Shown piece by piece: positions 21,063-46,016 of a stretch of 64,000 nucleotides of DNA. Within the stretch, counting starts at the first letter, position 1. Every line of letters begins with the position of its first letter. Below the pieces are notes generated by a model that saw only the letters and a list, made by a program, of their open reading frames with translations, was not told the DNA's origin and searched no databases. The DNA is from Arthrobacter sp. AZCC_0090 (lineage in GTDB: Bacteria > Actinomycetota > Actinomycetes > Actinomycetales > Micrococcaceae): NCBI RefSeq assembly GCF_014207375.1, contig NZ_JACHEE010000007.1, positions 62,001-126,000 of the forward strand, read 5' to 3'. The position numbers and the translations under genes are program-made.

Positions 21063-21068
21063 TCATTG

Positions 21069-21104
21069 CCGGAGTGCGGTCTGCTACGACGGACCGCACT
21101 CCGG
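21069..21104 (+). terminator. 13-bp stem-loop between binding-protein and permease genes
   Basis: CCGGAGTGCGGTC (21069-21081) pairs perfectly with 21092-21104 across a 10-base loop. It begins seven bases after the binding-protein stop. Such hairpins after a binding-protein gene usually stabilise the upstream message or attenuate downstream transcription, giving excess binding protein over permease. There is no U-tract, so attenuation or mRNA stabilisation is more likely than full termination. Confidence 0.55.
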
Positions 21105-21232
21105 ATTCCAGTTCCGCAAGAAGGACAGCCACATGTTTACGAAAACCGTATGCCCGCCCTCGGGTGATCTGTGCCATGACCATTGACAGCCACCGCCGGG
21201 CCTCGGCGCAGGACAAAGCCGGGGAGCCTCCC

Positions 21233-23736: not shown

Positions 23737-24189
23737 GTGGAGGGCACCGAACCGCCGTCAGGGATGCAGGCAAGCATCGACAGAACCGTGGAATGGGTGG
23801 ACACCGATGCGTCGGGCCATCAGCACAATTCGGCGATCATGCGCTGGGTGGAGGCCGCCGAGGCAGAGCTCTTCCGCAATCTGGTGCTTCCGGAGTACTT
23901 TCCGAGCGCTCCACGAGTGCAGCAAGTGGTCAATTACACGGCCAAGCTGTGGTTTGGCCAGCGGGTGACAGCAACCGTGCGGATCCAAAAAGTCGGCCGC
24001 ACGTCCATGACCCTTGCCTTTGAGGTCTACGGCCACGCACATCCACACTCGCCGGGCGGCCTGGCTGCCCATGGGACGCTGACCACTGCCCACGTGCCCG
24101 CGGGCTCAGCCTCAGCCCAGCCGTGGCCGGAACGGATCCGGCAGGCGGCCGCCGTGACAGTCCCGAAGATCGCGGGCTCTGAACAATGA
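23737..24189 (+). CDS. acyl-CoA thioesterase, 4-hydroxybenzoyl-CoA thioesterase (hot-dog) type
   Basis: A 150-residue hot-dog protein. The segment VEWVDTDASGHQHNSAIMRWVEAAEAELFRNL matches the 4HBT-family catalytic helix, including the Asp (VDTDASGH) that acts as nucleophile or base. The GTG start at 23737 has GGGGGA just upstream. The gene overlaps the PaaX gene by four bases (ATGA). It should hydrolyse a small, perhaps aromatic, acyl-CoA. PaaX regulators respond to aryl-CoA, which fits. Confidence 0.82.
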   Translation: MEGTEPPSGMQASIDRTVEWVDTDASGHQHNSAIMRWVEAAEAELFRNLVLPEYFPSAPRVQQVVNYTAKLWFGQRVTATVRIQKVGRTSMTLAFEVYGHAHPHSPGGLAAHGTLTTAHVPAGSASAQPWPERIRQAAAVTVPKIAGSEQ

Positions 24190-25070
24190 TGGACATGCCC
24201 GCTCCCCCGGTGCGCCACCAGCAGCTGATCGTCACCATCTATGGGCTCTACGGCCGCAGTTCAGGCGACGCCCTCCCCGTCTCGGTGCTGATCTCCATGC
24301 TGGGCGACCTTGGCTATGACGCGCCGGGAGTCCGTTCCTCAGTCTCGCGGCTGAAGGCCAAGGGTGTCCTCAAAAGTGTCCGCCAGGATGGCGTCGCCAA
24401 ATACGAACTGTCCGACACCGTTCTGGACGTTTTCCGGGAGGGCGACCGGAGAATCTTCGCCGCCGATCGCTCCGCCCACCTGGAATCCTGGGTACTCGCG
24501 GTATTCTCCGTCCCCGAATCAATGCGGAATCGCCGGCACCAACTGCGATCAGAACTGTCTGGGCTCGGTTTTGGGTCCGTGGCGTCGGGGGTATGGATTG
24601 CGCCGGCCCAGGTCCTCGAACAAGCCCGCGAGCGGCTTGCCTCCCGCGGGCTTATCCAGTTTGTGGACTTCTTCAGGGGCGACTACTTGTTTGAGGGCCC
24701 CCTGCGGCCAAAGGTGGCCGAATGGTGGGATTTGAAGGCCATTGACGAGCAATTCGCCGAATTCTTGGATCTCTATAAAGGAGCCGGAGATCTTTGGGCC
24801 GCACTGGTAGGAGATGATCCCGAGGCCGCCCTGGCCAACTCGACGGCCCAGCTGCGCCGGGATGCTTTCCGCTACTACATCCCCATGCTGACGCTGTGGC
24901 GCCGCTTCCCGTATCGGGACCCGAACCTGCCGTCGGAATACCTCCCGAAGGACTGGCGCGGTCCGGCGGTTCGCGAGACGTTCCAGGCGGTTCATCGTCT
25001 TGCCGCGCCCCTCGCGGCAGCACACGCACACGAACTCATCCACGGCAGCATCGACCTGGTAGCGCCCTAG
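24186..25070 (+). CDS. PaaX-family transcriptional regulator
   Basis: A 294-residue protein with an N-terminal winged helix (QQLIVTIYGLYGRSSGDALPVSVLISMLGDLGYDAPGVRSSVSRLKAKGVL) and the PaaX central and C-terminal domains (SWVLAVFSVPESMRNRRHQLRSELSGLGFGSVASGVWIAP..., FRYYIPMLTLWRRFPYRDPNLPSEYLPKDWRG). PaaX proteins repress aromatic catabolic genes and release DNA on binding phenylacetyl-CoA or a related thioester. No paa genes are present here, so this member likely controls the neighbouring thioesterase and possibly the amidohydrolase locus. Confidence 0.88.
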   Translation: MMDMPAPPVRHQQLIVTIYGLYGRSSGDALPVSVLISMLGDLGYDAPGVRSSVSRLKAKGVLKSVRQDGVAKYELSDTVLDVFREGDRRIFAADRSAHLESWVLAVFSVPESMRNRRHQLRSELSGLGFGSVASGVWIAPAQVLEQARERLASRGLIQFVDFFRGDYLFEGPLRPKVAEWWDLKAIDEQFAEFLDLYKGAGDLWAALVGDDPEAALANSTAQLRRDAFRYYIPMLTLWRRFPYRDPNLPSEYLPKDWRGPAVRETFQAVHRLAAPLAAAHAHELIHGSIDLVAP

Positions 25071-27485: not shown

Positions 27486-27537
27486 GCATCCAAGAACAAT
27501 GTCGTTCTCGACCCAACAAGAATAGGTAATTCAAGTG

Positions 27538-28689: not shown

Positions 28690-28697
28690 TCAGTACC

Positions 28698-30251: not shown

Positions 30252-30274
30252 ACCCAACACTAAGGAGACCGTCA

Positions 30275-31294: not shown

Positions 31295-32487
31295 GTGCCA
31301 ACGCGGCCATCCCTGGAACCGTAAGGGAAGCAGCGGCCGGGGATCCCGAACTCCGAAAAACTATTAAGTCTGAGGTCCAGGCCGCGATAGAGGCGTTCCG
31401 AGACCAGGCGGTCGGCCTCAGCCATCGCATCCACGGCACACCGGAGCTCGGCTTCGAGGAGTTCTACTCGAGCCGGGAAGTCGCGAACGAGCTCCGCGCA
31501 GCCGGATTCACGGTGACTGAACGGGCTTTCGGGCTTGACACTGCGATCTCCGCAGTTGCGGGTGAGGGCTCCTTCAAGGCGGTCGTGGTAGCAGAATATG
31601 ACGCATTGCCTGAGCTCGGCCACGCCTGCGGTCACAACGTGATAGCGGCATGCGCGGTCGCCGCGGCGGTGGGACTGAAGCACGTCGCTGGGCAACTCGA
31701 TCTCACGGTGGAACTGTTGGGCACTCCGGCAGAGGAGACCGGCGGCGGCAAGATCCTCATGCTCGAACAGGGTGCATTCATCGGATCCGACATGGCCATG
31801 ATGATCCATCCTGCCCCATTCGAAGACGCCTCACCGAGCTTCCTCGCCAGCACCGGATTCTCCTTCACGTTCTCAGGTAGGAGCTCCCACGCTGCCGCCT
31901 CGCCATGGGAGGCAGCGAACGCCGCAGACGCATCGACCATCGCGCAGGTCGCTATCGGCCTGCTACGCCAGCAGCTCCCCAACGACACCCGAGTCCATGG
32001 TGTGGTCACGAATGCCGGTGCAGCCGCCAACGTGATCCCAGGAAAGTCCGGCGGTTTGTACGGGATCAGAGCCCAGACCCTGGCGGACCTCGAGGCCCTG
32101 ATCCCACGTGTCGAGGCGTGCTTCACGGGAGCAGCCCTCGCGGCCGGCTGCACAGTGGAGCTGGACTGGGAACAGACGTACCCGAATGTTGTGCAGTCGC
32201 CGCGGCTTGCGTCGTTGTATCAGCGCAATGCGGAGACGCTGGGCCGAAGCTTTCCGCAGGATGCCGAGGCCCGCGCATTCAGGGCCTCAACCGACTTCGG
32301 CGCCGTTTCCCAAGTCGTCCCCAGCCTTCACCCTCACATCAAGATCTGTGACTCACCCGTGTCCAACCATCAGTACGCCTTCACCGAAGCTGCATCCTCG
32401 GATCGGGCCGATCATGCACTCATAGAAGGCGCAATCGCCATGGCCTGGACGGTTGTGGACGCGGCCCTGACACGAATTCGCCCGTGA
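31291..32487 (+). CDS. M20-family amidohydrolase/aminoacylase
   Basis: A 398-residue metallohydrolase of the M20 (AbgB/aminoacylase-like) type. It has RIHGTPELGFEEFYSSREVANELRAAGF, VVVAEYDALPELGHACGHNVIA with the metal ligands, the TPAEETGGGK catalytic Glu motif and SGRSSHAAASPWEAANAADA of the dimerisation domain. ATG 31291 overlaps the TGA of the deacylase; the longer frame upstream has no support. It probably cleaves an amide bond of a compound imported by the adjacent Rbs-type transporter, acting before or after the deacylase. Confidence 0.88.
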   Translation: MSANAAIPGTVREAAAGDPELRKTIKSEVQAAIEAFRDQAVGLSHRIHGTPELGFEEFYSSREVANELRAAGFTVTERAFGLDTAISAVAGEGSFKAVVVAEYDALPELGHACGHNVIAACAVAAAVGLKHVAGQLDLTVELLGTPAEETGGGKILMLEQGAFIGSDMAMMIHPAPFEDASPSFLASTGFSFTFSGRSSHAAASPWEAANAADASTIAQVAIGLLRQQLPNDTRVHGVVTNAGAAANVIPGKSGGLYGIRAQTLADLEALIPRVEACFTGAALAAGCTVELDWEQTYPNVVQSPRLASLYQRNAETLGRSFPQDAEARAFRASTDFGAVSQVVPSLHPHIKICDSPVSNHQYAFTEAASSDRADHALIEGAIAMAWTVVDAALTRIRP

Positions 32488-32601: not shown

Positions 32602-34032
32602 CTAGGAGTGCGCCGCCCCCTCCAGGTTCCGGTCGACGTCGGACTCTGCAGTTCCCGGAGCGGAGCCTCGGCGGCCCTTCTTCAGGACGAAGTAGAGGAC
32701 GACGATACCGATGGCGAACGGGACCCCGAAGATCAGTGTCATCCGGAAGGCATCAACGAAGAGCGTGGTGACCATGATGGCAACCATGAGGATGGCTCCG
32801 GCCCAGGAGGCCACCGGGTAGAACCGCAGCTTGTACGACAGAGCCGTCCCGTCGCGCTTCGCTGCGCGTCGGAACGCCAGATGGGTCACGAAGATCATGA
32901 GCCACGTGGCCATGGCCCCGAACATGGACAACGCCATCATGAAGGTGAAGCCTGACTCCGGATTCAGGGCGTACACGCAGGCCGCCACCGCGATTCCACC
33001 TGTGCAGAGGATCAGTGCATTGACCGGGGAACCGTTCTTGTGAAGCCGCCCGAACACAGCGGGCGCCTGCCCGGCGCGGGACAAGCTAAACATCATGCGC
33101 GTGGAGATGTAGAGCTGCGAGTTCATGGCTGAAAGCGCAGCCACAATCACCACAACGTTGATGACGGAATCAGCGAACGGAATGCCAATGACCTGCATGA
33201 CGGTGACGAAGGGGCTGTTTCCGGCAAGAATCTGGCTGACAGGTGCAATGGCCAGGATCAGCGCCAGGGTCAGGATGTAGAAGAGGAAGAGACGGAATAC
33301 CGTGACCTTGAACGCCTTCTTAACCGCCGTTCCTGGATCCTTCGCTTCACCGGCCGCAATGGCGATCATCTCCACCGAGAGGTAGCTGAAGATCGCCACA
33401 ATCACGGCCACCCACATGCCGGACACGCCGTTGGGGAAGAACCCGCCCTCAGCAGTGTAGTTGTGGATTCCGTAGCCGGCCTCTCGCTTTCCAAAGACCA
33501 GGATGGCGGCGAGCAGGATGAATCCGAGGATGGCGAACACCTTGATGCTGGAGAACCAGTATTCCAGGGTGCCGAAGGCCTTGACGTTGAACATGTTGAC
33601 CGCGATGAGAACACCGGCAAACAACAGGATCCAGACCAGCGGGGGAACTCCCGGGAACCACAGCTTCATGTAGTCCCCGATCGCAAGCACTTCGGTGCCC
33701 ACGGCCAGCACAACGCAGGACCAGTACAGGTACTTCACAAGGAATCCGGCGAGGGGAGAAATGTAGTGCTCGGCGAAAGCCCCGAAGGACCCGGTGGTTG
33801 AATGGGCCACGGTCATCTCAGCCAGCGCGCCCATCAGCATCACGGCGATCAGGCCACCGATCGCATAGCTCAGCAGGACGCTGGGTCCGGCGAAAGATAT
33901 TGCGAACTTGCTTCCGAGGAAAAGCCCAGTGCCGATCGCGCCGCCCAGCGCGATCATGGTCAACTGTGGGCTGGTGAGTTCGCGCTTGAGTCCGCTCTCG
34001 CGGTTTTTAATCAGGTCGAAGCTGTGTGACAT
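32602..34032 (-). CDS. amino acid permease (APC superfamily, AroP/GABA-permease-like)
   Basis: A 476-residue, 12-helix permease starting SGLKRELTSPQLTMIALGGAIGTGLFLGS, the classical AAT-family N-terminus with the G-G-x-I-G-T-G-L-F substrate motif. Internal FSYLSVEMIAIAAGEAKDPGTAVKKAF is typical of AroP/PheP/CycA-type proteins. It lies 48 bases downstream of the RidA-family gene on the same strand and diverges from the aromatic-degradation genes, so it may import the aromatic amino acid-related growth substrate. The exact substrate is inference. Confidence 0.9.
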   Translation of the reverse strand: MSHSFDLIKNRESGLKRELTSPQLTMIALGGAIGTGLFLGSKFAISFAGPSVLLSYAIGGLIAVMLMGALAEMTVAHSTTGSFGAFAEHYISPLAGFLVKYLYWSCVVLAVGTEVLAIGDYMKLWFPGVPPLVWILLFAGVLIAVNMFNVKAFGTLEYWFSSIKVFAILGFILLAAILVFGKREAGYGIHNYTAEGGFFPNGVSGMWVAVIVAIFSYLSVEMIAIAAGEAKDPGTAVKKAFKVTVFRLFLFYILTLALILAIAPVSQILAGNSPFVTVMQVIGIPFADSVINVVVIVAALSAMNSQLYISTRMMFSLSRAGQAPAVFGRLHKNGSPVNALILCTGGIAVAACVYALNPESGFTFMMALSMFGAMATWLMIFVTHLAFRRAAKRDGTALSYKLRFYPVASWAGAILMVAIMVTTLFVDAFRMTLIFGVPFAIGIVVLYFVLKKGRRGSAPGTAESDVDRNLEGAAHS

Positions 34033-34080: not shown

Positions 34081-34479
34081 CTAGCGCTCGGGAATGACCG
34101 CGATGCCTTGGATCTCAATGAGGGCTTCCTTCTGCCACAGCCGGGTGACACCGATTCCGGCCATCGAGGGATACTCGGAACCGGCCATTTCGCGCCAGAT
34201 CCGTCCAATTTCGCGGCCGTTGGCCATGTAGTCGTCCACGTCGGTGAGGTAGATGGTCACGCTGACCAGGTCCTCGGGTAGTCCGCCGGCTTCGCGCAGG
34301 GTGGTCAGCACATTGGAAAACGCCTGCGTGAACTGTTCCACGATCCCGCCGGGAACGATGTTCATGTCCTTGTCCAGGGCGGTCTGGCCACCCAGGAACA
34401 GAGTGTTTCCGGCGAGCATTCCGTGCGCAAAGCCTGACGGCTTCGGGAGCGACCCGGGATTGACGGTCTTGTGGCTCAT
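34081..34479 (-). CDS. RidA-family protein lacking the usual catalytic Arg
   Basis: A 132-residue YjgF/YER057c/UK114-fold protein: NTLFLGGQTALDKDMNIVPGGIVEQFTQAFSNVLTTLREAGGLPEDLVSVTIYLTDVDDY and YPSMAGIGVTRLWQKEALIEIQGIAV. In RidA proper the motif near the C-terminus is P-A-R, and its Arg (105 in E. coli) binds the imine carboxylate. Here the aligned residue is Met106 (Y-P-S-M). It therefore belongs to a Rid subgroup with a different role, plausibly hydrolysing an amino-dienoate ring-cleavage product in the neighbouring pathway. It forms an operon with the permease gene and diverges from the FAH-family gene. Confidence 0.88.
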   Translation of the reverse strand: MSHKTVNPGSLPKPSGFAHGMLAGNTLFLGGQTALDKDMNIVPGGIVEQFTQAFSNVLTTLREAGGLPEDLVSVTIYLTDVDDYMANGREIGRIWREMAGSEYPSMAGIGVTRLWQKEALIEIQGIAVIPER

Positions 34480-34562
34480 AGTGTTCCTCCTCTTGATGGC
34501 GGCTGCGACATGTTCGAAAAAACCACTGTGCAGATCATTCCCCGCCGTGCTACGTTGAGCAT

Positions 34563-34591
34563 ATGTGACGATCGTAAAAAAGTCGACACAT
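34563..34591. promoter_or_regulatory. inverted repeat in the divergent RidA / FAH-hydrolase promoter region
   Basis: ATGTGACGA (34563-34571) and TCGACACAT (34583-34591) are inverted with one mismatch and an 11-base spacer. They lie about 45 bases upstream of the FAH-family start and about 85 upstream of the RidA start. The internal TGACGATCGT (34566-34575) is also found at 17993-18002. No regulator gene is present in this cluster, so the binding protein must be encoded elsewhere. Confidence 0.4.
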
Positions 34592-34635
34592 CAGAATGAA
34601 TGTAGGAATCGGCAGGACACGAAGGGACAACACGC

Positions 34636-35493
34636 ATGAAGCTGGCCACCTTACGGACAGCCGACGGGGGCACGACGGCGGTACTCGCGACCGGCGGGAA
34701 CAGTTACGTTCCGCTGCCGGCCAACGACGTCGGGGCTCTTCTCGCCGTCCCGGACTGGCGCGCGATCGTGGCAGCCGCCTTCGCTGCAGCCTCCGGATCA
34801 GGTACGGTTTCCGCACCTGCCAGCGAGCTGGCGCCTCTGCTGCCGCGGGCCGGGAAGGTCATCTGCTGCGGGCTGAACTACGGCGACCACATCCAGGAGA
34901 TGGGGCGCAAGTTGCCCGAATACCCCACGCTTTTCGCGAAGTACGCGGACACCCTCACCGGCCCGGCCGACACCATTCATGTCCACGGCAGCGCGAAGGT
35001 CGACTGGGAAGCCGAACTGGCCGTCGTCGTCGGCTCCGAGCTGTTCCGCGCGGGCGAAGACGAAGCCCGGCAGGCAATCGCGGGGTACACGGTGGCCAAC
35101 GACATTTCCATGCGCGATTGGCAGAGCCGGACCCTGCAGTGGTTCCAGGGCAAGGCATTCGACAGAACCACCCCCGTGGGACCGCTCATGGTGACTGCGG
35201 ACGAGGTCGACGGCGACTTCGAGGTCCGCGGTTATGTCAACGGCGAGCTGGTGCAGTCGGGGAACACGGGCACCTTGGTGTTCGGCCCGGCGAAGCTCCT
35301 TTCCTACATTTCCCAGTTCACCATCCTGCGTCCAGGGGACCTGGTTCTCACCGGCACCCCCGGCGGAGTCGGCATGGGCATGACTCCCCCACGCTTCCTG
35401 AACGACGGCGATGTCCTCACCACCGAAATCGACGGAATCGGAAGGCTGGAAAACCATGTCCGAATCCACGCACCCGTCTCCGCGAACGCCTAG
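34636..35493 (+). CDS. fumarylacetoacetate hydrolase-family protein (fumaryl-/maleylpyruvate hydrolase-like)
   Basis: A 285-residue FAH-family protein: KVICCGLNYGDHIQEMGRKLPEYPTLFAKYADTLTGPADTIHVHG, the metal-binding Glu pair in DWEAELAVVVG, then GYTVANDISMRDWQSRTLQWFQGKAFD and LTGTPGGVGMGMTPPRFLNDGD. The start is ATG 34636 in the divergent region. In a gentisate-like or 5-hydroxyanthranilate-like route it would split the keto-acid formed after ring cleavage to pyruvate and a C4 dicarboxylate. It heads a five-gene catabolic run with cupin, thioesterase, ligase and hydroxylase genes. Confidence 0.88.
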   Translation: MKLATLRTADGGTTAVLATGGNSYVPLPANDVGALLAVPDWRAIVAAAFAAASGSGTVSAPASELAPLLPRAGKVICCGLNYGDHIQEMGRKLPEYPTLFAKYADTLTGPADTIHVHGSAKVDWEAELAVVVGSELFRAGEDEARQAIAGYTVANDISMRDWQSRTLQWFQGKAFDRTTPVGPLMVTADEVDGDFEVRGYVNGELVQSGNTGTLVFGPAKLLSYISQFTILRPGDLVLTGTPGGVGMGMTPPRFLNDGDVLTTEIDGIGRLENHVRIHAPVSANA

Positions 35494-35526
35494 ACCAATA
35501 CCAACCACTTCAAAGGAGTGAGCATC

Positions 35527-36009
35527 ATGAGCGAAACCGCCACCGAATACCGAACCGAAGGCGACAACTCCATCTACGCCCAGCCCGACGGCAAAGTGAT
35601 TCCGGTCGTCACGCGCGCCGGCGAAGAGGATACCAACACGGCCCAGTCCGGCGATTGCGTTCGCGTCTCGGGCGTCAGCATCCAGCACACGCCGGCCACC
35701 AAGATCTGGTTCGGGCAGGTCTCCAACGTTCCCGGCTATCGTTCCTTGCCGCACCACCATGGCGAAGCGGAAACCGGCGGCTACGTGCTCCGCGGCCACG
35801 GACGCATCTATTTCGGCGAGAACTACTCCGAATTCCTGGACATGAAGACCGGCGACTGGGTATTCGTCCCGCCGTTCATGCCACACGTCGAGGCCAACAT
35901 GTCCGTCACCGAAGAACTCGTGTGGCTGACCGCGCGCACCCCGGAGAACCTCGTGGTCAACCTCGAAGACGTTGCCGACGAGACCCTCGCAGACTTCCGC
36001 AGGGCCTGA
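35527..36009 (+). CDS. small cupin protein, candidate ring-cleavage dioxygenase
   Basis: A 160-residue single-domain cupin from ATG 35527 (AAGGAG upstream). Motif 1 (PGYRSLPHHHGEAETGGYVLRG) supplies H76/H78 and an acidic ligand. Motif 2 (GDWVFVPPFMPHVEAN) supplies H120. This is a complete 3-His/1-Glu-type metal site. Its size is like 3-hydroxyanthranilate 3,4-dioxygenase, not the longer gentisate dioxygenase. In the context of aryl-CoA ligase, CoA-dependent hydroxylase and thioesterase genes it is the only visible candidate for ring opening, e.g. of 5-hydroxyanthranilate. Its TGA overlaps the next ATG (TGATG region). Confidence 0.75.
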   Translation: MSETATEYRTEGDNSIYAQPDGKVIPVVTRAGEEDTNTAQSGDCVRVSGVSIQHTPATKIWFGQVSNVPGYRSLPHHHGEAETGGYVLRGHGRIYFGENYSEFLDMKTGDWVFVPPFMPHVEANMSVTEELVWLTARTPENLVVNLEDVADETLADFRRA

Positions 36010-36905
36010 TGGACATGTCCACTGGAATCCTGACCTCGGAGACGTTCCTCAAGGCCATCGAACTGACGGCCGTCCCCGCCCAGATCCACGACGAAGCCTA
36101 CGAAGCCACGTCGCAGTACGTTCCGTGGCCCAAGGCTTACGGCGGAGACATGGTGGCCCAGGCCGCCGCAGCGATGATGCGCTCGGTGGACGCCGACCGC
36201 TCGCTGCATTCCATGCACAGCTACTTCATGCGCCCAGTGGAGATCGGGGCAACGGTCCGCTACGAGGTTGAACGCCTCCGCGACGGCCGCGGATACTCGA
36301 CCCGAAGCGTGCGGGGCCACCAGAACGGCAAGACCGTGTACGCCGCGATGGGCTCCTTCCAAGTGCCCGAAGACGGCCCGGACTTCCAGCCGGAGGCGCC
36401 ATCCGCCGTCGAACCCGAATCCCTTCGCAGCGCCGCCGAGGTGCTGCAGGGCGTCGAGGGGCCCGCTGCCGATTACTGGTCCAGCGGGCGCAGCTTCGAC
36501 ATGCGACACATTCCCGGGCCGGTATATCTGCAGGTCGAAAGCGAATCCGTACCGCACCAGGCCATCTGGGTGAAAGCCTTCGAGCAACTGCCGGACGCCG
36601 GCGACGAACATGCCACCGCCGATCTGCACCGAGCCGCGCTGGCATACGTCTGCGACTACACCATCCTCGAGCCCCTGCTTCGGGTGAACGGACTCCACTG
36701 GTCCAGCCCCGGACTCGCCACGGCCAGCCTGGACCACTCCATGTGGTTCCACCGGGACGGCCGCGCGGATGACTGGGTCCTGTACGCCCAGGAGGCCGTG
36801 TCCGGGCAAAGCAACAGGGGGCTGGCCACGGGCCGCTTCTTTGACAGGCAAGGACGCCTGCTGGCAACGGTTGCCCAAGAAGGCATGATCCGCGCCGGTT
36901 CCTGA
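36009..36905 (+). CDS. tesB: acyl-CoA thioesterase II (TesB family)
   Basis: A 298-residue double hot-dog thioesterase. It shows YVPWPKAYGGDMVAQAAAAMMRSV, SMHSYFMRPVEIGATVRYEVERLRDGRGYSTRSVRGHQNGKTVYAAMGSFQ, the catalytic Asp in ASLDHSMWFHR, and YAQEAVSGQSNRGLATGRFF with QEGMIR near the end. The ATG at 36009 shares its A with the stop of the cupin gene. Within this operon it is probably specialised for an aryl-CoA (hydroxy-anthraniloyl- or gentisyl-CoA), freeing the ring for cleavage. General housekeeping acyl-CoA hydrolysis remains possible. Confidence 0.88.
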   Translation: MDMSTGILTSETFLKAIELTAVPAQIHDEAYEATSQYVPWPKAYGGDMVAQAAAAMMRSVDADRSLHSMHSYFMRPVEIGATVRYEVERLRDGRGYSTRSVRGHQNGKTVYAAMGSFQVPEDGPDFQPEAPSAVEPESLRSAAEVLQGVEGPAADYWSSGRSFDMRHIPGPVYLQVESESVPHQAIWVKAFEQLPDAGDEHATADLHRAALAYVCDYTILEPLLRVNGLHWSSPGLATASLDHSMWFHRDGRADDWVLYAQEAVSGQSNRGLATGRFFDRQGRLLATVAQEGMIRAGS

Positions 36906-36945
36906 ACACTTCGACTTATCCGCCGTATTACTGAAAGGAGTGGCC

Positions 36946-38604
36946 ATGACAATGTTGAGATCAGCCCACGTGGACACCTTCACCCGCGACCATTTGCCAC
37001 CGGCCGGCACGTGGCCGACCCTCGAATTCACCCTGCCGGAACTCCAGTACCCGGCGACGCTCAACGCAGCAGCAGCGCTCATTGACGACGCCGTCGCAAA
37101 CCATGGTGACGGACGCCCCGCTCTGCTTACCCCGGACGGCACGGTCTGGACGTACGGTGAACTGCAACAGCGCGCCAACCAAGTCGCCCAGGTCCTCACC
37201 GAGGACCTCGGCGTGGTGCCCGGCAACCGCGTCATGCTGCGAGGGCCGAATAATCCGTGGATTGTCGCGGCCTGGCTGGGCGTGCTCAAGGCCGGGGCCG
37301 TCGTTGTCACCACCATGCCGATGCTGCGTTCCAGCGAAGTCGGCACGCTCATCAGCCTCACGCGTCCGGCCGTAGCCATCTCCGACCACCGGTTCATGGA
37401 CGAACTGCTCGCGGCGGCAGGAGCGGACACCGTTGTCCTCTCCTACGGATCCGACGACGCCGGCGACCTCGCGTCCCGCTGTGCCGCCAAGAGCGGCGAG
37501 TTTACTGCCGTGCCGACCTCCGCCGACGACGTCGCACTGCTCGGCCCGACGTCGGGCACCACGGGCACGCCCAAGATCACCATGCATTTCCACCGGGACA
37601 TCCTCGCGAACGCCGACACTTTTGCCCGCCATATTCTGCAGCCAACCGCCGACGACGTATTTGCCGGTTCACCACCCCTCGCCTTCACGTTCGGCCTCGG
37701 TGGGCTGGTGGTCTTCCCCCTGCGCTTCGGCGCATCCTCGCTGCTGACAGAACGGGCCACCCCCGTGGAACTAGCCGAGAGTGCCGCCGCTGCCGGGGCC
37801 ACCATCCTGTTCACCGCACCCACTGCGTACCGGGCCATCCTCAAGGAAGGCCGCGGATCATTGCTCCGCGAGCTCCGGGTAGCGGTCTCGGCGGGCGAAC
37901 ATTTGCCCAAGGAAACGTGGGAGGCAGTTCAAGCAGCCACGGGGCTCCGGCTCGTCAACGGCATCGGAGCCACCGAACTGTTGCACGTGTTCATTTCCGC
38001 GTCCGGGGACGACATCCGGCCCGGCACCACCGGACGGGCCGTGCCCGGGTACAGGGCAGCCATCCTCGACGACGAGGGCCTGGAACTAGGACCCGGGCAG
38101 CTTGGCCGGCTCGCCGTCATCGGCCCCACCGGATGCCGCTACCTGGACGACCCACGGCAAACAAACTATGTGGTCAACGGCTGGAACGTCACCGGCGATA
38201 CGTTCACGAAAGACGAGGACGGGTACTTCACGTATCAGGCCCGGTCGGACAACATGATCGTTTCGTCCGGCTACAACATCGGTGCCCCCGAGGTGGAAAC
38301 CGCCATCGACCTGCACCCGGACGTGGTGGAGAACGCCGTCATCGGCCGGCCCGACGAGGCACGCGGGAGCGTTGTCTGCGCGTTCATCGTCCTACGCGAA
38401 GGCGTCAGGGGCGATGACGCGAAGCGCAAGGAAATCCAGGACTTCGTCAAACGGACGATCGCCCCCTACAAGTACCCGCGGGACATCCGGTTCGTCGATG
38501 AACTTCCCCGCAATCCCAGCGGCAAGCTGCAGCATTTCAAGCTGCGCGACCGCGTCAACAACGACCCCGAACAGCTTGCCGGCGCAGGCCTGGGCCAGGC
38601 CTGA
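36946..38604 (+). CDS. aryl-CoA ligase (benzoate/2-aminobenzoate-CoA ligase family)
   Basis: A 552-residue ANL-superfamily ligase. The P-loop is LLGPTSGTTGTPKITMHFHRD; the A5/A8-type motifs are NGIGATELLHVFIS, RSDNMIVSSGYNIGAPEVE and the catalytic Lys region RNPSGKLQHFKLRDRV. The N-terminus (HVDTFTRDHLPPAGTWPTLEF) is typical of the 2-aminobenzoate-CoA ligase/benzoate-CoA ligase group. AAAGGAG precedes ATG 36946. It should activate a benzoate-type acid with ATP and CoA. Together with the next gene the best guess is anthranilate or salicylate. Confidence 0.88.
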   Translation: MTMLRSAHVDTFTRDHLPPAGTWPTLEFTLPELQYPATLNAAAALIDDAVANHGDGRPALLTPDGTVWTYGELQQRANQVAQVLTEDLGVVPGNRVMLRGPNNPWIVAAWLGVLKAGAVVVTTMPMLRSSEVGTLISLTRPAVAISDHRFMDELLAAAGADTVVLSYGSDDAGDLASRCAAKSGEFTAVPTSADDVALLGPTSGTTGTPKITMHFHRDILANADTFARHILQPTADDVFAGSPPLAFTFGLGGLVVFPLRFGASSLLTERATPVELAESAAAAGATILFTAPTAYRAILKEGRGSLLRELRVAVSAGEHLPKETWEAVQAATGLRLVNGIGATELLHVFISASGDDIRPGTTGRAVPGYRAAILDDEGLELGPGQLGRLAVIGPTGCRYLDDPRQTNYVVNGWNVTGDTFTKDEDGYFTYQARSDNMIVSSGYNIGAPEVETAIDLHPDVVENAVIGRPDEARGSVVCAFIVLREGVRGDDAKRKEIQDFVKRTIAPYKYPRDIRFVDELPRNPSGKLQHFKLRDRVNNDPEQLAGAGLGQA

Positions 38605-38618
38605 GAAGGAGCAAAAGC

Positions 38619-41009
38619 ATGAAAATCGCAATCGTAGGAGGCGGCCCCGGCGGCCTGTACTTCGCGGCACTGATGAAGCAACTCGACCCGTCGCACAAGA
38701 TCACTCTCTGGGAACGCAACGCCGCCAGCGACACTTTCGGTTTCGGCGTCGTATTCTCCGATGAGACGCTCGGCGGCATTGGCAACGCCGACGCGGTGGT
38801 GGCCGAGTACATGAGCCGGCGCTTCGCCCGCTGGTCCGACATCGACATCCATTTCGGCGGGGAAACGGTGACGGTGGGCGGCCAGGGCTTTGCGGCCATG
38901 AGTCGCAAGGAACTGCTGGAACTGCTTCAGCGCCGGTGCGCCGAGCTCGGCGTCGACCTGCGTTTCCAGACCCTTGCGCCGCCGGTTGAGGAGCTTGAGG
39001 CCAACTATGACCTGGTCCTGGCAGCAGACGGCATCAACTCCCAGATCCGTGCCAAATACGCGGACTCCTTCACTCCAAGCCTGGACCTGCGGCCCAACAA
39101 GTTCATGTGGCTGGGCACGGACCAGGTGTTCGAGGCGTTCAAGTTCTTCGTCAAGGAAACCGAATGGGGGGTCATGCAGATCCATGGCTACCCGTACTCC
39201 GATGAAGGCTCCACGTTCATTGTCGAAATGCACGAGGACGTGTGGCGGGCTGCCGGCTTCGACGAGACCGCTTCCGACGTGTTCCCTCCCGGGGTCTCGG
39301 ATGAAAAGGCGATCGCCAAGATCCGCACGATCTTTGAGGAGGAACTCGACGGCTACGAAGTCCTGTCCAACAACTCCAAATGGATCAACTTCACCACTGT
39401 GCGTAACGAGAGCTGGCGCCACGGCAATGTCGTGCTGCTCGGCGATGCCGCTCACACCGCACACTTCTCCATCGGTTCCGGAACCAAACTGGCCATGGAA
39501 GACTCCCTGGCACTCGCCGCGTGCCTGCACGCGCACGCGGATGTGGAATCGGCGTTGTCTGCCTACGAAACGGAGCGGCGTCCGGTTGTCGCCTCCACCC
39601 AGCGCGCCGCCCAGGCTTCGCTTGAATGGTTCGAGCGGATCGCCCAATACAAGGAGCAGGATCCGACGCAGTTCGCCTTCAACCTCCTCACGCGGAGCCG
39701 CCGCATCACACAGGAAAACCTGCGCCTGCGCGACCCCGAGTTCGCCGACGCCGTGGACCGCAACTTCGCCGAGTCCCAAGGACTGACGGAGACTGCCCCG
39801 GCCATGTTCCAACCATTCCGGATCGGCGGACTGGAGCTCAAAAACCGCATTGTGGTCTCCCCCATGGACATGTACTCCGCGGTGGATGGCGTCCCGGGCG
39901 ACTTCCACAAAGTGCACCTCGGTTCCAAGGCACTCGGCGGCGCCGGATTGGTCATGACCGAAATGGTGTGTGTTTCCGAGAGCGGGCGGATCACGCCCGG
40001 TTGCACCGGCCTGTACACGGAGGCACAGCGAGACAGCTGGAAGGAAATCGTGGACTTCGTCCATGCTCGTTCGATGGCCAAGATCGGTGCGCAGCTGGGT
40101 CATTCCGGCCGCAAGGGCTCCACCAAGCTCATGTGGGAAGGCATCGACGAGCCTCTCGCGTCCGGCAACTGGCAGGCCGTTGGACCATCAGCCCTGCCTT
40201 ACGGCCCTGGCAACCAGACGCCTGTTGAACTCGACCGTGCAGGCATGGAAGCCATCAAGGCTGAGTTCGTGGCCGCGACCCTCCGTGCCGAAGAGTCAGG
40301 CTTCGACCTCCTTGAGGTCCATGCCGCCCACGGCTACTTGCTTTCCTCTTTCCTCTCGCCCGTTTCGAACCGCCGGACGGACGAGTTTGGTGGCAGCTTG
40401 GAGAACCGCCTGCGGTTCCCCTTGGAAGTGTTCGACGCCGTCCGTGCGGCGTGGCCTGCCAGCAAGCCCGTGACGGTACGCATCTCCGCGACAGACTGGA
40501 TCGACGGCGGCAACACCTCAGACGACTCGCTCAACATCGCGCGGGCATTCGTGGCCCACGGCGCCGCGGGCATCGACGTCTCCACCGGCCAGGTCGCCAA
40601 GGAAGAACAACCGGCTTTCGGCCGCAGCTACCAGACGCCGTTCGCCGACCGCATCCGCCAGGAGGTTGCCGCACCCGCGGGAGCAGCGGTCATCGCCGTC
40701 GGCGCCATCTCCAGCTATGACGACGTGAACTCCATCCTCCTCGCAGGACGGGCGGACCTCGTGGCGCTTGGCCGGACGCACCTGTTCGACCCCCAGTGGA
40801 CGCTCCATGCCGCAGCCGAGCAGGAATACCAGGGCCCCGGGGCGCAATGGGTGCCACAGTTCCGCGCGGGCCGACGCAAACCGCCGAGCTCCCGCACGGA
40901 TGCCGTAAGGCCCCGGCTGTCCCTCTTGAAAGAGCCCGAGTCCGACGCCGACAACACCCACTTGCGCTGGACCCCCAGAGCAGTCTCCGCGCCCGCGCTG
41001 GCCAACTAG
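38619..41009 (+). CDS. bifunctional aryl-CoA 5-hydroxylase: FAD monooxygenase fused to old-yellow-enzyme domain
   Basis: A 796-residue fusion. The N-terminal half is a class A flavoprotein monooxygenase: GGGPGGLYFAALMK (FAD dinucleotide fold, residues 8-21) and VVLLGDAAHTAHFSIGSGTKLAMEDSLALA (about 269-298). The C-terminal half, from about residue 393, is an NADH:flavin oxidoreductase (FRIGGLELKNRIVVSPMDMYSAVDGVPGDFHKVHLGSKALGGAGLVMTEM, AQLGHSGRKGS, EVHAAHGYLLSSFLSPVSNRRTD). This domain order is that of 2-aminobenzoyl-CoA monooxygenase/reductase and of salicylyl-CoA 5-hydroxylase fusions. It is expected to hydroxylate C5 of the CoA-activated ring using NAD(P)H and O2. It lies 14 bases after the ligase stop. 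Confidence 0.9.
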   Translation: MKIAIVGGGPGGLYFAALMKQLDPSHKITLWERNAASDTFGFGVVFSDETLGGIGNADAVVAEYMSRRFARWSDIDIHFGGETVTVGGQGFAAMSRKELLELLQRRCAELGVDLRFQTLAPPVEELEANYDLVLAADGINSQIRAKYADSFTPSLDLRPNKFMWLGTDQVFEAFKFFVKETEWGVMQIHGYPYSDEGSTFIVEMHEDVWRAAGFDETASDVFPPGVSDEKAIAKIRTIFEEELDGYEVLSNNSKWINFTTVRNESWRHGNVVLLGDAAHTAHFSIGSGTKLAMEDSLALAACLHAHADVESALSAYETERRPVVASTQRAAQASLEWFERIAQYKEQDPTQFAFNLLTRSRRITQENLRLRDPEFADAVDRNFAESQGLTETAPAMFQPFRIGGLELKNRIVVSPMDMYSAVDGVPGDFHKVHLGSKALGGAGLVMTEMVCVSESGRITPGCTGLYTEAQRDSWKEIVDFVHARSMAKIGAQLGHSGRKGSTKLMWEGIDEPLASGNWQAVGPSALPYGPGNQTPVELDRAGMEAIKAEFVAATLRAEESGFDLLEVHAAHGYLLSSFLSPVSNRRTDEFGGSLENRLRFPLEVFDAVRAAWPASKPVTVRISATDWIDGGNTSDDSLNIARAFVAHGAAGIDVSTGQVAKEEQPAFGRSYQTPFADRIRQEVAAPAGAAVIAVGAISSYDDVNSILLAGRADLVALGRTHLFDPQWTLHAAAEQEYQGPGAQWVPQFRAGRRKPPSSRTDAVRPRLSLLKEPESDADNTHLRWTPRAVSAPALAN

Positions 41010-41019: not shown

Positions 41020-41655
41020 ATGGCTATCATCCATCGAGCAACCCTGAGTCCCAGCAAACTTGAGCTCATTGAAAAGTACCTGCCCGCCCAGACATGGTTC
41101 ATCAAAGATGGCTCCGCGCCGCCCGAGCTGCTCGGCGCGTACCGCTTCGATGATCCGGACGGCGAAGTGGGCCTCGAGACCCATCTGGTCTCCCACGGCG
41201 GCAAGGTCTATCAAGTTCCGTTGAGCTACCGGGGATCGGAATTGTCCGGCGCTGAGGGCTCACTGCTCGGCACCATGGAACATTCCGTGTTGGGCAAGCG
41301 GTGGGTGTACGACGCCTGCGCCGATCCCGTCTACGTCGCTGCCCTGGCCACCGCCATCCTCACGGGACAGCGGGAAGCCGAACAGTTCGTGGACGGGGAC
41401 GGCGCGTTGCAGCCACGCGCCAGCTCCGTCAAAGTCAAAGGCAGTGGAGCCCCCGGTAGCGAAGTCCCTTCGGTGACCCCGGCGGCCGCGGTCACCGAAG
41501 ACAGCATCACCCGCATCGACGCGGGTAAGCTCACGCTGCTGGTAAAGCGTGTCCTGGACCTGGGGACGCCGGGTCCGGAGGATTCGGATGCCCTGCGGGG
41601 TACGTGGGCCGGTCAGGAAGCGCCAGTGCTGCTGGCGTCCCTGTTGCGACCCTAG
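41020..41655 (+). CDS. stand-alone maltokinase N-terminal cap-like protein
   Basis: A 211-residue protein. LELIEKYLPAQTWFIKDG..., GLETHLVSHGGKVYQVPLSYRG and MEHSVLGKRWVYDACADPVYVAALATAILTG match the N-terminal cap domain of actinobacterial maltokinases (and related branching-enzyme-associated proteins). No kinase domain follows, so it cannot phosphorylate maltose by itself. It lies 10 bases after the monooxygenase stop but seems functionally unrelated to it, and it converges with hspR with a 4-base gap. A small separate role in carbohydrate regulation is possible. Confidence 0.72.
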   Translation: MAIIHRATLSPSKLELIEKYLPAQTWFIKDGSAPPELLGAYRFDDPDGEVGLETHLVSHGGKVYQVPLSYRGSELSGAEGSLLGTMEHSVLGKRWVYDACADPVYVAALATAILTGQREAEQFVDGDGALQPRASSVKVKGSGAPGSEVPSVTPAAAVTEDSITRIDAGKLTLLVKRVLDLGTPGPEDSDALRGTWAGQEAPVLLASLLRP

Positions 41656-41659
41656 AGAA

Positions 41660-42082
41660 TTACTCCCCCGGACGCGGCCGCCACACCACAACTGCCTGGG
41701 ACCGCGCCCGGGGGCGCTGCCCGCGGGCCAGGCTGACGACGTCGCCCGCTGCTCCTGCCGCAAAAACGCGGGCCTCCACCGGGCCCCGCCGGCGTTGCAG
41801 TTCCTCGCTCAGCTCGGCCACGCGGTACTGCAGTGCGGCCACTTGGTTTTCGAGATCAAGGATCCGTTTGATGCCCTCAAGGGACACGCCTTCGTGGGAG
41901 AGCCGCTGGACTTCACGCAAGCGGTCGATATCCCGCTGGGAGTAGCGTCGGGACTTACCCGGCGCTCGGCTCGGCGACACGATGCCGAGGCGATCGTACT
42001 GGCGCAGGGTCTGCGGGTGCATGTCAGCCAGTTCGGCCGCGACGGAGATGACGAAGATCGGCTGGTTGATGTCGATGCCCAT
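41660..42082 (-). CDS. hspR: HspR, MerR-family heat-shock repressor
   Basis: A 140-residue MerR-type protein: FVISVAAELADMHPQTLRQYDRLGIVSPSRAPGKSRRYSQRDIDRLREVQRLSHEGVSLEGIKRILDLENQV, i.e. winged HTH plus coiled coil. It is the last gene of the dnaK-grpE-dnaJ-hspR operon, the standard actinobacterial order. HspR binds HAIR elements and uses DnaK as co-repressor; two HAIR-like sites are present upstream of dnaK (46069-46089 and 46122-46142), completing the feedback loop. Confidence 0.93.
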   Translation of the reverse strand: MGIDINQPIFVISVAAELADMHPQTLRQYDRLGIVSPSRAPGKSRRYSQRDIDRLREVQRLSHEGVSLEGIKRILDLENQVAALQYRVAELSEELQRRRGPVEARVFAAGAAGDVVSLARGQRPRARSQAVVVWRPRPGE

Positions 42083-42111
42083 GACGACGTCCCTCCTGTG
42101 TGTTGCTGCCG

Positions 42112-43080
42112 CTACAAGCGGGCCTTGGCGGCCAGGTCGTGGCGGGGATCGGCGTCGGAAGTAGCCGCGGCGAATGCCTTGACGGCCTCCTCGGCCTCTT
42201 TGTTAAGGTTCTGCGGGACGGCGACGTCGATTGTCACCAGCAGATCGCCGGTGCCCTTCGTCGTCTTGACGCCACGGCCCTTGACCCGGAGGGTGCGCCC
42301 GGAAGGCGTGCCGGCCGGGACGCGGACGGTGACAGAGTCGCCGTCGAGCGTTGGCACGTGGATGTTGGCACCCAACGCGGCTTCAGCGAAAGTCACCGGC
42401 ACGTGGATGCGGATGTTGTCGCCGTCGCGGTTAAAGAAATCGTGTGGCTTGACGTTCACCGTGATGATGAGGTCCCCGTTGCCGGCTGCTCCGGGATTGC
42501 CTTTGCCGCGCTGACGGACCTTCTGGCCGTCCCTGATGCCCGCGGGAATCTTGACGTCGATGACGTTGCCGTTGCTTTCGCGCAGGCTCACCGTGGTGCC
42601 GTGGATGGATCCGGCGAAGGAAATGGAGGTAGACGCCGTGCGGTCGCTGCCCTTTTGCGGGGCGCGCTGGAAGCCGGTCTGTCCACCGCCGAAGCCGCCG
42701 CCGAACAGGTCGGCGAACTCGGGAGGGATACCGCCGGCACCGGCAGGCTGACGTGCTCCGCCGCCGAAAAGTCCGCCGAACAGGTCCTCGAAGCCACCAT
42801 TGGCCGGCCCGCCGCGTCCTGCTGCCCCCGGAGCGAATCGTGCCCCGCCCATGGCACGGATGGCATCGTACTGCTGACGCTCCTCGGCATCCGAAAGCAC
42901 TGAATAGGCCTCCGAGATGTCCTTGAACTTCTTCTCGGCAGCAGCACCCCCGGAATTGGTATCCGGATGATACTTCCGCGCAAGCTTGCGGTACGCCTTC
43001 TTAATGTCAGCGTCAGAGGCGTCCTTGGCGACACCAAGGATGGCGTAAAAATCCTTCTCAACCCAGTCCTGGCTGGCCAC
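42112..43080 (-). CDS. dnaJ: DnaJ-type co-chaperone without zinc fingers
   Basis: A 322-residue type-II Hsp40. The J-domain is at the N-terminus with the HPD triad at residues 38-40 ([13 protein letters not shown]). A Gly/Phe-rich linker ([39 protein letters not shown]) and C-terminal substrate-binding domains ([65 protein letters not shown]) follow. The CxxCxGxG zinc repeats of canonical DnaJ are absent. It starts with GTG at 43080, 342 bases downstream of grpE, an unusually large gap for this operon. Confidence 0.93.
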
Positions 43081-43422
43081 TCGGCTTCCTTCTCTCGTTT
43101 CTGGTCAAGTTTGCGCTCCGCTGGATAGGGGGCCGTGCCCGCTTCGCGATGCCCGCCACGCCGCGGCCCCCTATCCAGCTGCGCTGCGCTCATCTCACCT
43201 TAGGCGAGTCAAGCCTTAGGCGAGAGGACCGCTTGAGCCGTAGCGGGTGAGGGGGCCCGGGAGTGGCATCTAAGGATCTGGCCGAGGGCCCCGACACGAG
43301 CTTGCGAGTGTTGGGAAGGCCAATATCCGCTGCCGAAGCCGGGTGGCCAAGGATCGCAGATCCTAGGCCACCCGGCGAAGGGGCGGGGCCCCCTCATCCG
43401 CGAAGGCGCGGTGAGTGGATCC
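43081..43422. repeat. 342-base foldback region between grpE and dnaJ
   Basis: No gene is visible. Three strong inverted repeats fill it. (i) 43121-43135 (CTGGATAGGGGGCCG) pairs perfectly with 43164-43178. (ii) 43243-43258 pairs with 43386-43401 (GTGAGGGGGCCC type, 15 of 16). (iii) 43339-43355 (CCGGGTGGCCAAGGATC) pairs with 43359-43375, 16 of 17, with loop GCA. There is also a direct repeat CTTAGGCGAG at 43199-43208 and 43215-43224. Hairpin iii is nested inside ii. The region looks like an inserted repeat (MITE- or REP-like) or a structured RNA within the heat-shock transcript. Confidence 0.7.
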
Positions 43423-44106
43423 CTAAGCAGGCACTGCCACAATCACCTGTGCCGCACGCAGCACGCGGTCGCCGGAGCGGTAGCCGGAGCGCAGCACTTG
43501 GCTGACGGTGTCCACTTCGATGTCCTCGCCCGGCTGCTGGATGAGGGCTTCGTGGATCGTGGGGTCGAATTCGACGCCAGTCTCCGCGATGCGCTCCAGG
43601 CCGTACGTCTTCAGCGCAGTCTCCAGCTTGGCGGCGATCGCGGCGAACGGGCCGTCCACGAGGTCGCCGTGCTGGCGGGCGGCGTCGACGTCGTCGAGCA
43701 CCGGCAGGAGGGAGTTCAGGACGCCGATGACGGCCATTTCCCCTGCGACGGCGCGGTCACGTTCGACGCGCTTGCGGTAGTTGACGTACTCAGCTTGCAG
43801 GCGCAGGAGGTCGTTGCGGAGTTCCGCGGCCTCTGCTTGTGCTGCGGCACCAGGGGCTACCGACTCTTCAGCCGGAACCTCGACGCCGTTGAGGATTTCC
43901 TCAGCCTGGCACAGGGCGTCGCCCTCGGTGGCAGAGGCGTTGGAGTCAGCTGCCGATCCTTGGGTGTGGCGGGCGGCCCCGGTCTCCGGGTCGACCTTGC
44001 GGTTGTCGCGAATAATTGGCTTCTGCTGACCGGCTCCTTCACGCTCGTCGTGCTTGCCCTCGTTGCTCGAACGTGAGTGCTCTGCGTCGTTGCCGTGGTG
44101 AGGCAT
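43423..44106 (-). CDS. grpE: GrpE, nucleotide exchange factor for DnaK
   Basis: A 227-residue protein with a charged, disordered N-terminus followed by the long GrpE coiled coil (NDLLRLQAEYVNYRKRVERDRAVAGEMAVIGVLNSLLPVLDDVDAARQHG) and the beta-wing domain ending GYRSGDRVLRAAQVIVA. The ATG at 44106 is two bases after the dnaK stop, so it is tightly coupled to dnaK. Confidence 0.95.
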   Translation of the reverse strand: MPHHGNDAEHSRSSNEGKHDEREGAGQQKPIIRDNRKVDPETGAARHTQGSAADSNASATEGDALCQAEEILNGVEVPAEESVAPGAAAQAEAAELRNDLLRLQAEYVNYRKRVERDRAVAGEMAVIGVLNSLLPVLDDVDAARQHGDLVDGPFAAIAAKLETALKTYGLERIAETGVEFDPTIHEALIQQPGEDIEVDTVSQVLRSGYRSGDRVLRAAQVIVAVPA

Positions 44107-44108
44107 GC

Positions 44109-46016
<1,908 letters not shown>

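Follow-up and report, generated by a model that had tools for sequence, protein, structure and literature searches.

How does a bacterium that activates anthranilate as its coenzyme A (CoA) thioester remove the nitrogen and open the ring? This question is raised by a cluster of six genes in the 4.92 Mb genome of Arthrobacter sp. AZCC_0090, located within the 64,000 nt stretch that was analyzed here and is denoted the window (positions 62001-126000 of the 241 kb contig C7, NZ_JACHEE010000007.1). The six core genes encode a Rid-family protein, an FAH-family hydrolase, a cupin with a single cupin domain (monocupin), a TesB-type thioesterase, an aryl-CoA ligase, and a fusion of an FAD monooxygenase with an old yellow enzyme domain (FMO-OYE). 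The initial annotation of this locus, made from the sequence alone, envisaged a complete route via free 5-hydroxyanthranilate. We lean towards a different interpretation, namely, that the genes form an operon, probably regulated by a PaaX-type protein, for aerobic, CoA-dependent degradation of anthranilate, in which reductive hydroxylation of the thioester is followed by deamination by Rid, cleavage by the cupin, and a final split by the FAH-family enzyme.

When named genomes were scanned for relatives of the cupin, 434 were obtained, and the best 80 of these, representing 78 distinct loci, were retained (very near genomes were possibly left out); the best named cupin matches among those kept came from Arthrobacter and Paenarthrobacter species. 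Because all six core genes occur together in 73 of the 78 loci, with the gene order and orientation of the window retained in 67, the arrangement is not a product of chance. Each of the five exceptional loci lacks a match to a single gene, namely, FAH (three loci), the ligase (one), or Rid (one). A 4HBT-fold thioesterase and a PaaX-type regulator, which are encoded 9-11 kb upstream of the cluster in the window, with transport and hydrolase genes in between, are likely to be further members of the cluster; homologs were found in the fetched flanks of 55 of the 78 loci for the former and in 73 for the latter. The amino acid permease that had been suggested to import the substrate is indeed encoded beside the cluster, but a homolog (at least 50% identity) is present in just 6 of the 78 loci, in 3 of these 6 on the opposite side of the cluster, so that the permease is better regarded as accessory than as a pathway member.

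The first step would be the conversion of anthranilate, CoA, and ATP to 2-aminobenzoyl-CoA by the ligase, an assignment that draws on close orthology to a tested enzyme. All six genes recur, with their order unchanged, on plasmid pAL1 (pARUE113) of Arthrobacter sp. Rue61a, with identities of 88% for the cupin, 81% for the ligase, and 83% for FMO-OYE; the window copy differs in its location on a 241 kb contig with the permease adjoining. Since the pAL1 ligase is a published anthranilate-CoA ligase, and since the AZCC_0090 genome encodes a tryptophan dioxygenase and a kynureninase-like protein, the substrate of the cluster is very probably anthranilate. ARUE_113p00220, expressed in E. coli, is reported to be an anthranilate-CoA ligase (PMC3534580), and the published primer for this gene exactly matches the start of the ligase gene in the pAL1 cluster. 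The same text gives this activity for two Rue61a ligases, the second being ARUE_c41730 (PMC3534580). The primer for the latter matches the start of the cluster ligase gene in two strains of Paenarthrobacter nitroguajacolicus and one of P. nicotinovorans (L063, L070, L064), and has five more exact matches in short loci of other genomes. By orthology, the window protein is predicted to be the anthranilate-CoA ligase of the aerobic 2-aminobenzoyl-CoA pathway. As for the origin of the substrate, genes for quinaldine degradation (meqE), kynureninase, tryptophan dioxygenase together with a kynureninase-like protein, or the alkylquinolone regulator aqdR are neighbors of the cluster in some plasmid records, and contig C1 of the AZCC_0090 genome encodes a tryptophan 2,3-dioxygenase (above the model cut-off), the kynureninase-like protein, and a PaaX-type regulator together. 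Probably, anthranilate is supplied at least partly by tryptophan through kynurenine. Both the substrate and the ligase product named in the initial annotation are thus supported by the ligase orthology, the former also by the genes of tryptophan catabolism.

The upper part of the pathway is known from Rue61a and Azoarcus, and the cluster is a real, conserved, and mostly known kind of anthranilate cluster. Besides the plasmid-borne genes, Rue61a has a chromosomal paralog of the lower anthranilate pathway of pAL1. The Rue61a paper discusses the ligase and the monooxygenase/reductase, and the word cupin is absent from its main text (PMC3534580). In the same paper, the CoA esters of two acids, C7H7NO3 and C7H8O4, are reported exclusively for anthranilate-grown cells, and the authors suggested hydroxyanthraniloyl-CoA and, possibly, cyclohexanedione-carboxyl-CoA (PMC3534580). 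The C7H8O4 acid fits 2,5-dioxocyclohexane-1-carboxyl-CoA, the product that we propose for Rid. The 2-aminobenzoyl-CoA route is also reported for Azoarcus evansii (PMC3534580). For the aerobic pathway of that organism, further degradation is ascribed to beta-oxidation enzymes, whereas the window, in this comparison by description, has the monocupin, FAH, and TesB genes instead. Loci from the class of the window that contain acyl-CoA dehydrogenase (ACAD) and crotonase (ECH) genes resemble the Azoarcus type; homologs of the L184 and L220 proteins were found neither in the 78 named loci (at 35% identity for the acyl-CoA dehydrogenase and 30% for the crotonase) nor in the window (at 45%). In the open-licence papers and listings searched, we recognized no paper on a cupin in anthranilate degradation or on a lower pathway consisting of Rid, monocupin, TesB, and FAH. 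The attribution of a 5-hydroxyanthranilate route to the abm genes of Alcaligenes, mentioned in the initial annotation, was not confirmed in this open-licence literature.

In the second step, the FMO domain would hydroxylate C5 and the fused OYE domain would reduce the ring, yielding the non-aromatic 2-amino-5-oxocyclohex-1-ene-1-carboxyl-CoA. In the third step, Rid would hydrolyze this enamine to ammonium and 2,5-dioxocyclohexane-1-carboxyl-CoA. Both assignments build on the protein families, the active-site residues, and the co-occurrence of the genes. The window protein contains both domains with an intact OYE active site and matches NF006101 above the cut-off, which, together with the identity to the pAL1 protein, supports the predicted hydroxylation by the fusion, as initially annotated. 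Residues H568, H571, and Y573, whose roles we take to be those known from YqjM-type enzymes, are conserved in 89 of 89, 87 of 89, and 89 of 89 loci, respectively. Rid proteins hydrolyze enamines and imines; the window protein contains the PF01042 domain of the RidA/YjgF family with R113, presumably the catalytic arginine, which is kept in 79 of 86 loci.

The order of these steps is suggested by a comparison of loci that differ in the state of the OYE domain. A search with the FMO domain in 345 genomes of the class gave matches in 94, and 60 of the 123 listed places were fetched with their flanks. These regions, picked by FMO-domain identity before their context was known, are the sole set chosen without regard to cupin or ligase; the monocupin guided the choice of the 78 named loci and of those on plasmids, and similarity of the ligase that of the set added last. 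The 60 regions comprise 41 FMO-OYE fusions and 19 FMO-only loci. Rid is encoded in 33 of the 41 fused loci (one weak match, 29% identity), a bicupin in 2, and a maleylpyruvate isomerase in none, whereas the 8 FMO-only loci with at least 45% identity include none with Rid, 6 with a bicupin, and 5 with the isomerase (Fisher p of about 3e-5 to 5e-5, uncorrected for relatedness). The 11 FMO-only loci below 45% identity, which were kept outside of the Fisher tests, contain two bicupins and neither Rid nor the isomerase. In 19 of the 41 fused loci, Rid is accompanied by ACAD and ECH, with no cupin in the stretch. Given these loci, in which Rid is present and a cupin was not found, the Rid step probably precedes ring opening, with the product of the intact OYE domain as its most likely substrate.

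The two fused loci with a bicupin (L210 and L214), as well as L212, have altered OYE active-site residues. L210 encodes a nitrilase-family and an EutA-like protein, both below model cut-offs, and L214 contains homologs of both. In L212, an EutA-like gene is present, and a longer fetch of the contig (L261) revealed FAH as well as, just outside the L212 stretch, the bicupin and nitrilase genes. This locus also has a weak Rid-family match (29% identity) that falls under the 35% threshold. For a final count, in which Rid was scored at 35% identity or more, loci obtained by searching the L210 genus with the ligase were added, as were 20 further regions; L262 was omitted as a repeat of the L214 locus, and L276 (not fused), L038, L044, L047, and L048 were left uncounted. 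The 128 fetched loci with an intact OYE triad, the kind to which the window locus belongs, include 120 with Rid, 97 with the monocupin, and 23 with ACAD plus ECH, and none with the bicupin, the nitrilase, or the EutA-like protein. Conversely, among the 20 loci with a degenerate triad, none has Rid or the monocupin, 19 have the bicupin, 19 the nitrilase, and all 20 the EutA-like protein. Within the class search, the 38 loci with intact OYE comprise 32 with Rid, 9 with the monocupin, and 21 with ACAD plus ECH. In a tree of the FMO domain (91 rows, OYE columns excluded), two changes are required to account for the degenerate class, and two are forced by the starred branches; on this tree, which was built by a quick method and has some long branches, the degenerate OYE domain appears to have arisen twice.

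Loci of the L210 type (from genomes of genus g58 and of family f51), which also contain an FAH gene, share with the window a related ligase (62% identity for L210) and the FMO-OYE fusion, but differ from it in the degenerate OYE domain, the bicupin, nitrilase, and EutA-like genes, among them amidase- and isomerase-like ones, and the lack of Rid (at 35% identity or more) and of the monocupin. These loci would fit the 5-hydroxyanthranilate route. That the window follows the same route, with TesB freeing 5-hydroxyanthranilate, the cupin cleaving the aromatic ring, the FAH-family enzyme giving a C4 product and pyruvate, and the nitrogen removed last, seems improbable to us, even though the TesB, cupin, and FAH genes are adjacent, loci seemingly built for such a route exist, and Rue61a reportedly forms an ester resembling hydroxyanthraniloyl-CoA and converts 5-hydroxyanthranilate cometabolically (PMC3534580). 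Cleavage between C1 and C2 of 5-hydroxyanthranilate would turn the amino group at C2 into a carboxamide; therefore, an amidase and an isomerase would be needed, and Rid is not expected to hydrolyze an amide. The window contains Rid, the monocupin, and an intact OYE domain, in contrast to the loci of the L210 type. Searches of the window and the 78 named loci detected no homologs of the nitrilase and the EutA-like protein encoded at L210; amidases and isomerases of other families are possible there and elsewhere in the genome. Likewise, no homolog of the isomerase from the gentisate operon of this genome was found in the window. Hydrolases of other families are encoded in the window, namely, an amidohydrolase (18234-19979) and an M20 amidohydrolase (31291-32487), with homologs (at least 50% identity) near the cluster in 1 and 2 of the 78 loci, respectively. 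Moreover, Rue61a is reported to grow neither on 5-hydroxyanthranilate nor on gentisate or salicylate (PMC3534580). Taken together, these observations do not support free 5-hydroxyanthranilate as the substrate of ring cleavage, nor the action of Rid after cleavage that the initial annotation had assumed: Rid is present where no cupin was found and is absent (at 35% identity or more) from the loci with bicupin, nitrilase, and EutA-like genes. All the genes named in that annotation do exist, but the statement that they encode every step was too strong, given that its route also requires an amidase as well as an isomerase for maleate or maleylpyruvate.

NCBI names the product of NF006101 salicylyl-CoA 5-hydroxylase/oxidoreductase, which points to degradation of salicylate via salicylyl-CoA and gentisate, as in loci of the sdg type. 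This route, initially considered the main alternative, is very unlikely to operate here. Like the window, gentisate pathway and sdg-type loci contain an FAH-family hydrolase, a cupin dioxygenase, and an FMO related to the N-terminal domain of the fusion; in contrast to the window, their dioxygenase is a bicupin, their FMO lacks OYE, they encode a mycothiol-dependent isomerase family protein, and no Rid was found. In the comparison above, it is the closer FMO-only relatives that carry the bicupin and the isomerase, whereas the fused relatives mostly carry Rid and never the isomerase. The FMO of the window is fused, and no homolog of the gentisate dioxygenase-like bicupin or of the isomerase was found in the window. 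Gentisate 1,2-dioxygenases are bicupins of about 340-400 aa, recognized by TIGR02272; this model matched two other places in the genome and not the 160 aa window cupin, which has no detectable similarity to the gentisate dioxygenase-like bicupin (hhalign probability 1.3%). One of these places is a separate gentisate-type operon on contig C2, with the bicupin (272 bits, cut-off 442), an FAH-family gene, a member of the mycothiol-dependent maleylpyruvate isomerase family (exceeding the domain cut-off), and a protein resembling 3-hydroxybenzoate 6-hydroxylase (under the cut-off); the other is a weak match on contig C7 (40.8 bits, L135). Of 92 sequences examined, L126 was the one in which a homolog of the C2 isomerase was found, separated from the cupin gene by about 9 kb; a homolog of the C2 bicupin was found in none. 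Finally, the tested ligase ortholog uses anthranilate, and the lack of growth of Rue61a on salicylate and gentisate argues against this route as well.

How, then, would the ring be opened after the reductive steps? We infer that the monocupin, with Fe(II) and O2, cuts the C1-C2 bond in the enol form of the non-aromatic beta-keto acid or thioester to yield succinylpyruvate (2,4-dioxoheptanedioate), that CoA is removed by TesB or the 4HBT protein before or after this cut, and that the FAH-family enzyme splits succinylpyruvate to succinate and pyruvate. The masses balance as C7H8O4 + O2 = C7H8O6, and addition of water to the latter yields C4H6O4 + C3H4O3. Neither an amidase nor an isomerase would be needed, since the double bond of the ring would have been reduced beforehand. 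The C4 acid and pyruvate of the initial annotation are supported as plausible end products. A more specific proposal, which we put forward tentatively and rate as somewhat short of probable, is that the monocupin is a new dioxygenase acting on the non-aromatic 2,5-dioxocyclohexanecarboxylate (dihydrogentisate) skeleton, that its product succinylpyruvate is converted by FAH to succinate and pyruvate, so that the cluster would represent a further finish of the 2-aminobenzoyl-CoA route, and that the twofold decay of OYE marks a switch to an aromatic route via 5-hydroxyanthranilate that employs bicupin, amidase, and isomerase.

The metal-binding motif of the cupin (HxH...E...H) is conserved at H76 in 90 of 91 loci and at H78, E82, and H120 in 91 of 91, as predicted for an Fe(II) cupin dioxygenase, and the protein is the sole match in the genome at E 0.001. 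A ring-cleaving monocupin with Fe(II) bound by histidines is known, namely, 5-nitrosalicylate 1,2-dioxygenase, which resembles the window cupin in having a single cupin domain and is reported to be inactive on 5-hydroxyanthranilate and gentisate (PMC10306065). In the FAH-family protein, which contains the PF01557 domain expected of an acylpyruvate hydrolase, H85, E88, and E125 are kept in 86 of 86 loci and E127 and K173 in 87 of 87. We take these residues to be the lid His-Glu pair and the metal ligands. The best NCBIfam model for this protein, 2,4-diketo-acid hydrolase, is matched with 187 bits, far under the cut-off of 500, and family membership alone leaves the substrate unfixed because the FAH of the gentisate operon in the same genome is 50% identical to the window protein. 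The TesB-type protein matches TIGR00189 with 199.6 bits, under the cut-off of 293. An unlikely alternative, slightly less improbable than the 5-hydroxyanthranilate route, retains the reductive upper steps but assigns to the cupin a non-oxygenase reaction, for example, a hydrolytic or isomerizing one on the 2,5-dioxo thioester, or another intermediate as its substrate, while FAH would process some other keto acid. This would agree with the presence of cupin relatives beside genes for short-chain dehydrogenases/reductases (SDRs) or for free-standing OYE without FMO, with the apparently cupin-free ring opening in the ACAD and ECH loci, with the lack of FAH in the stretch of some cupin loci, and with the lack of a close characterized relative of the cupin. 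However, the conservation of the metal motif and the presence of an FAH-family gene in 75 of the 78 loci fit an oxygenase that produces an acylpyruvate.

Several observations weigh against the pathway with the intact OYE, Rid, and monocupin that we favor. The reaction ascribed to the cupin is a guess: its best profile match is oxalate decarboxylase (E 1e-4), and 3-hydroxyanthranilate 3,4-dioxygenase emerges just at E 0.15 or worse. Its structural model is poor (mean pLDDT 59), built from a shallow alignment of 43 sequences, of which the others are 79-96% identical to the query, and gave no Foldseek match at E 0.001 or better; none of the five PDB matches at E 1 is named as a ring-cleaving dioxygenase, and the structure was, accordingly, rejected as proof of function. 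No FAH gene was detected in 3 of the 78 named loci or in 3 of the 9 loci with a cupin that the class search gave, and a free beta-keto acid may decarboxylate spontaneously. With regard to the upper steps, the C7H7NO3-CoA of Rue61a fits hydroxyanthraniloyl-CoA, 5-hydroxyanthranilate was cometabolized, the non-growth on 5-hydroxyanthranilate and gentisate could reflect uptake, and C7H8O4-CoA could form by deamination without Rid. Rid was not found in 8 of the 128 loci with intact OYE (one of these has Rid about 11 kb away), and 8 of the 38 such loci from the class search contain neither monocupin nor bicupin nor ECH at 45% identity. The co-occurrence counts are not independent, most loci having been picked via the monocupin or ligase search. 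Concerning the supply of anthranilate, kynureninase or tryptophan dioxygenase is encoded near the cluster in just 1 of the 78 named loci (L108, a weak kynureninase of 30% identity, with no tryptophan dioxygenase), and the kynureninase-like protein of AZCC_0090 scores 244.3 bits, slightly under the model cut-off of 246.4. For the window proteins themselves, all steps of the pathway are predictions.

Table 1. Genes and other features of the anthranilate cluster in the window (window coordinates).
Feature	Coordinates	Strand	Evidence
Rid-family enamine/imine hydrolase	34081..34479	-	PF01042, E 3e-20; divergent from FAH; match in 77/78 loci
FAH-family hydrolase, proposed acylpyruvate (succinylpyruvate) hydrolase	34636..35493	+	PF01557, E 5e-67
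Monocupin, 160 aa, proposed Fe(II) ring-opening dioxygenase	35527..36009	+	Cupin_2, E 6e-8
TesB-type acyl-CoA thioesterase	36009..36905	+	PF02551, E 6e-31; match in 78/78 loci
Aryl-CoA ligase, probably anthranilate-CoA ligase	36946..38604	+	TIGR02262 family, 333.6 bits (cut-off 375, not reached)
FMO-OYE fusion, 2-aminobenzoyl-CoA monooxygenase/reductase type	38619..41009	+	NF006101, 1225.6 bits (cut-off 1078, exceeded)
Amino acid permease, accessory	32602..34032	-	AA_permease, E 2e-97
4HBT-fold thioesterase, likely cluster member	23737..24189	+	PF13279/PF03061
PaaX-type transcriptional regulator, likely cluster regulator	24186..25070	+	three PaaX Pfam domains
Divergent intergenic region, likely promoter/operator	34480..34635	.	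gap between Rid (-) and FAH (+)

An open reading frame of 769 aa at 34596-36905 was rejected as a single protein; it corresponds to TesB with a spurious N-terminal extension across the out-of-frame FAH and cupin genes. Directly upstream of the permease, positions 26394-32487 of the window contain ABC transporter genes (permease, binding protein, ATPase) and genes for an AstE/AspA-like protein and the M20 amidohydrolase, which matches TIGR01891 above the cut-off. This block, which may serve the uptake and splitting of conjugates, is conserved as a unit in just 2 of the 78 loci (L052 and L053). Another block (18234-23639) directly precedes the 4HBT/PaaX pair and comprises the other amidohydrolase, an amino-acid-type ABC transporter (binding protein, permease, ATPase), and a GntR-type regulator; it has a near-identical counterpart in L056 and a partial one in L055. 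A regulator of the Lrp/AsnC family is encoded at 25212-26237, and AsnC-type genes also adjoin kynureninase in L037 and L046. Downstream of the cluster (41020-46013), a CG0192-related/maltokinase N-cap protein and a MerR-type regulator are followed by GrpE and Hsp70 genes; nothing about these genes points to a connection with the pathway.

Among the relatives, L037 and L046 are two plasmids of Arthrobacter sp. ERGS1:01 with very similar copies of the cluster beside kynureninase; the L046 copy seems partly decayed, with the cupin annotated shorter and FAH and TesB unannotated, and its gene table is incomplete. In L038, L044, and L047, cupin relatives of 65-81% identity lie near FAH-family genes, without an FMO, and two of these loci, L038 and L047, additionally encode a free-standing reductase of the OYE type nearby; possibly, this is the same ring-opening module adapted to a different substrate. 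Three alphaproteobacterial plasmid clusters (L040, L045, L139) combine FMO-OYE, Rid, cupin, and FAH with small thioesterases and SDRs; L045 contains, in addition, an indole/styrene monooxygenase-type gene, and in L139 a gene named NADPH dehydrogenase occupies, judging by name only, the FMO-OYE position. More distant cupin homologs on plasmids (34-36% identical, three inspected) are located beside sulfonate-uptake-type or unrelated genes. The FMO-only locus L180 (38% identity) has an EutA-like gene with 54% identity to that of L210 and otherwise, among the genes searched for, just distant ligase homologs.

If the proposed pathway is correct, it would give roles to the Rid, cupin, TesB, and FAH genes encoded alongside the '2-aminobenzoyl-CoA monooxygenase/reductase' of many actinobacteria, and the catabolism of anthranilate derived from tryptophan, quinaldine, or alkylquinolones would be completed in these organisms. 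It would also provide an example of a cupin that opens an already dearomatized ring. The state of the OYE domain is predicted to tell which of the two downstream chemistries a genome uses, and many proteins currently named salicylyl-CoA 5-hydroxylase may be misnamed.

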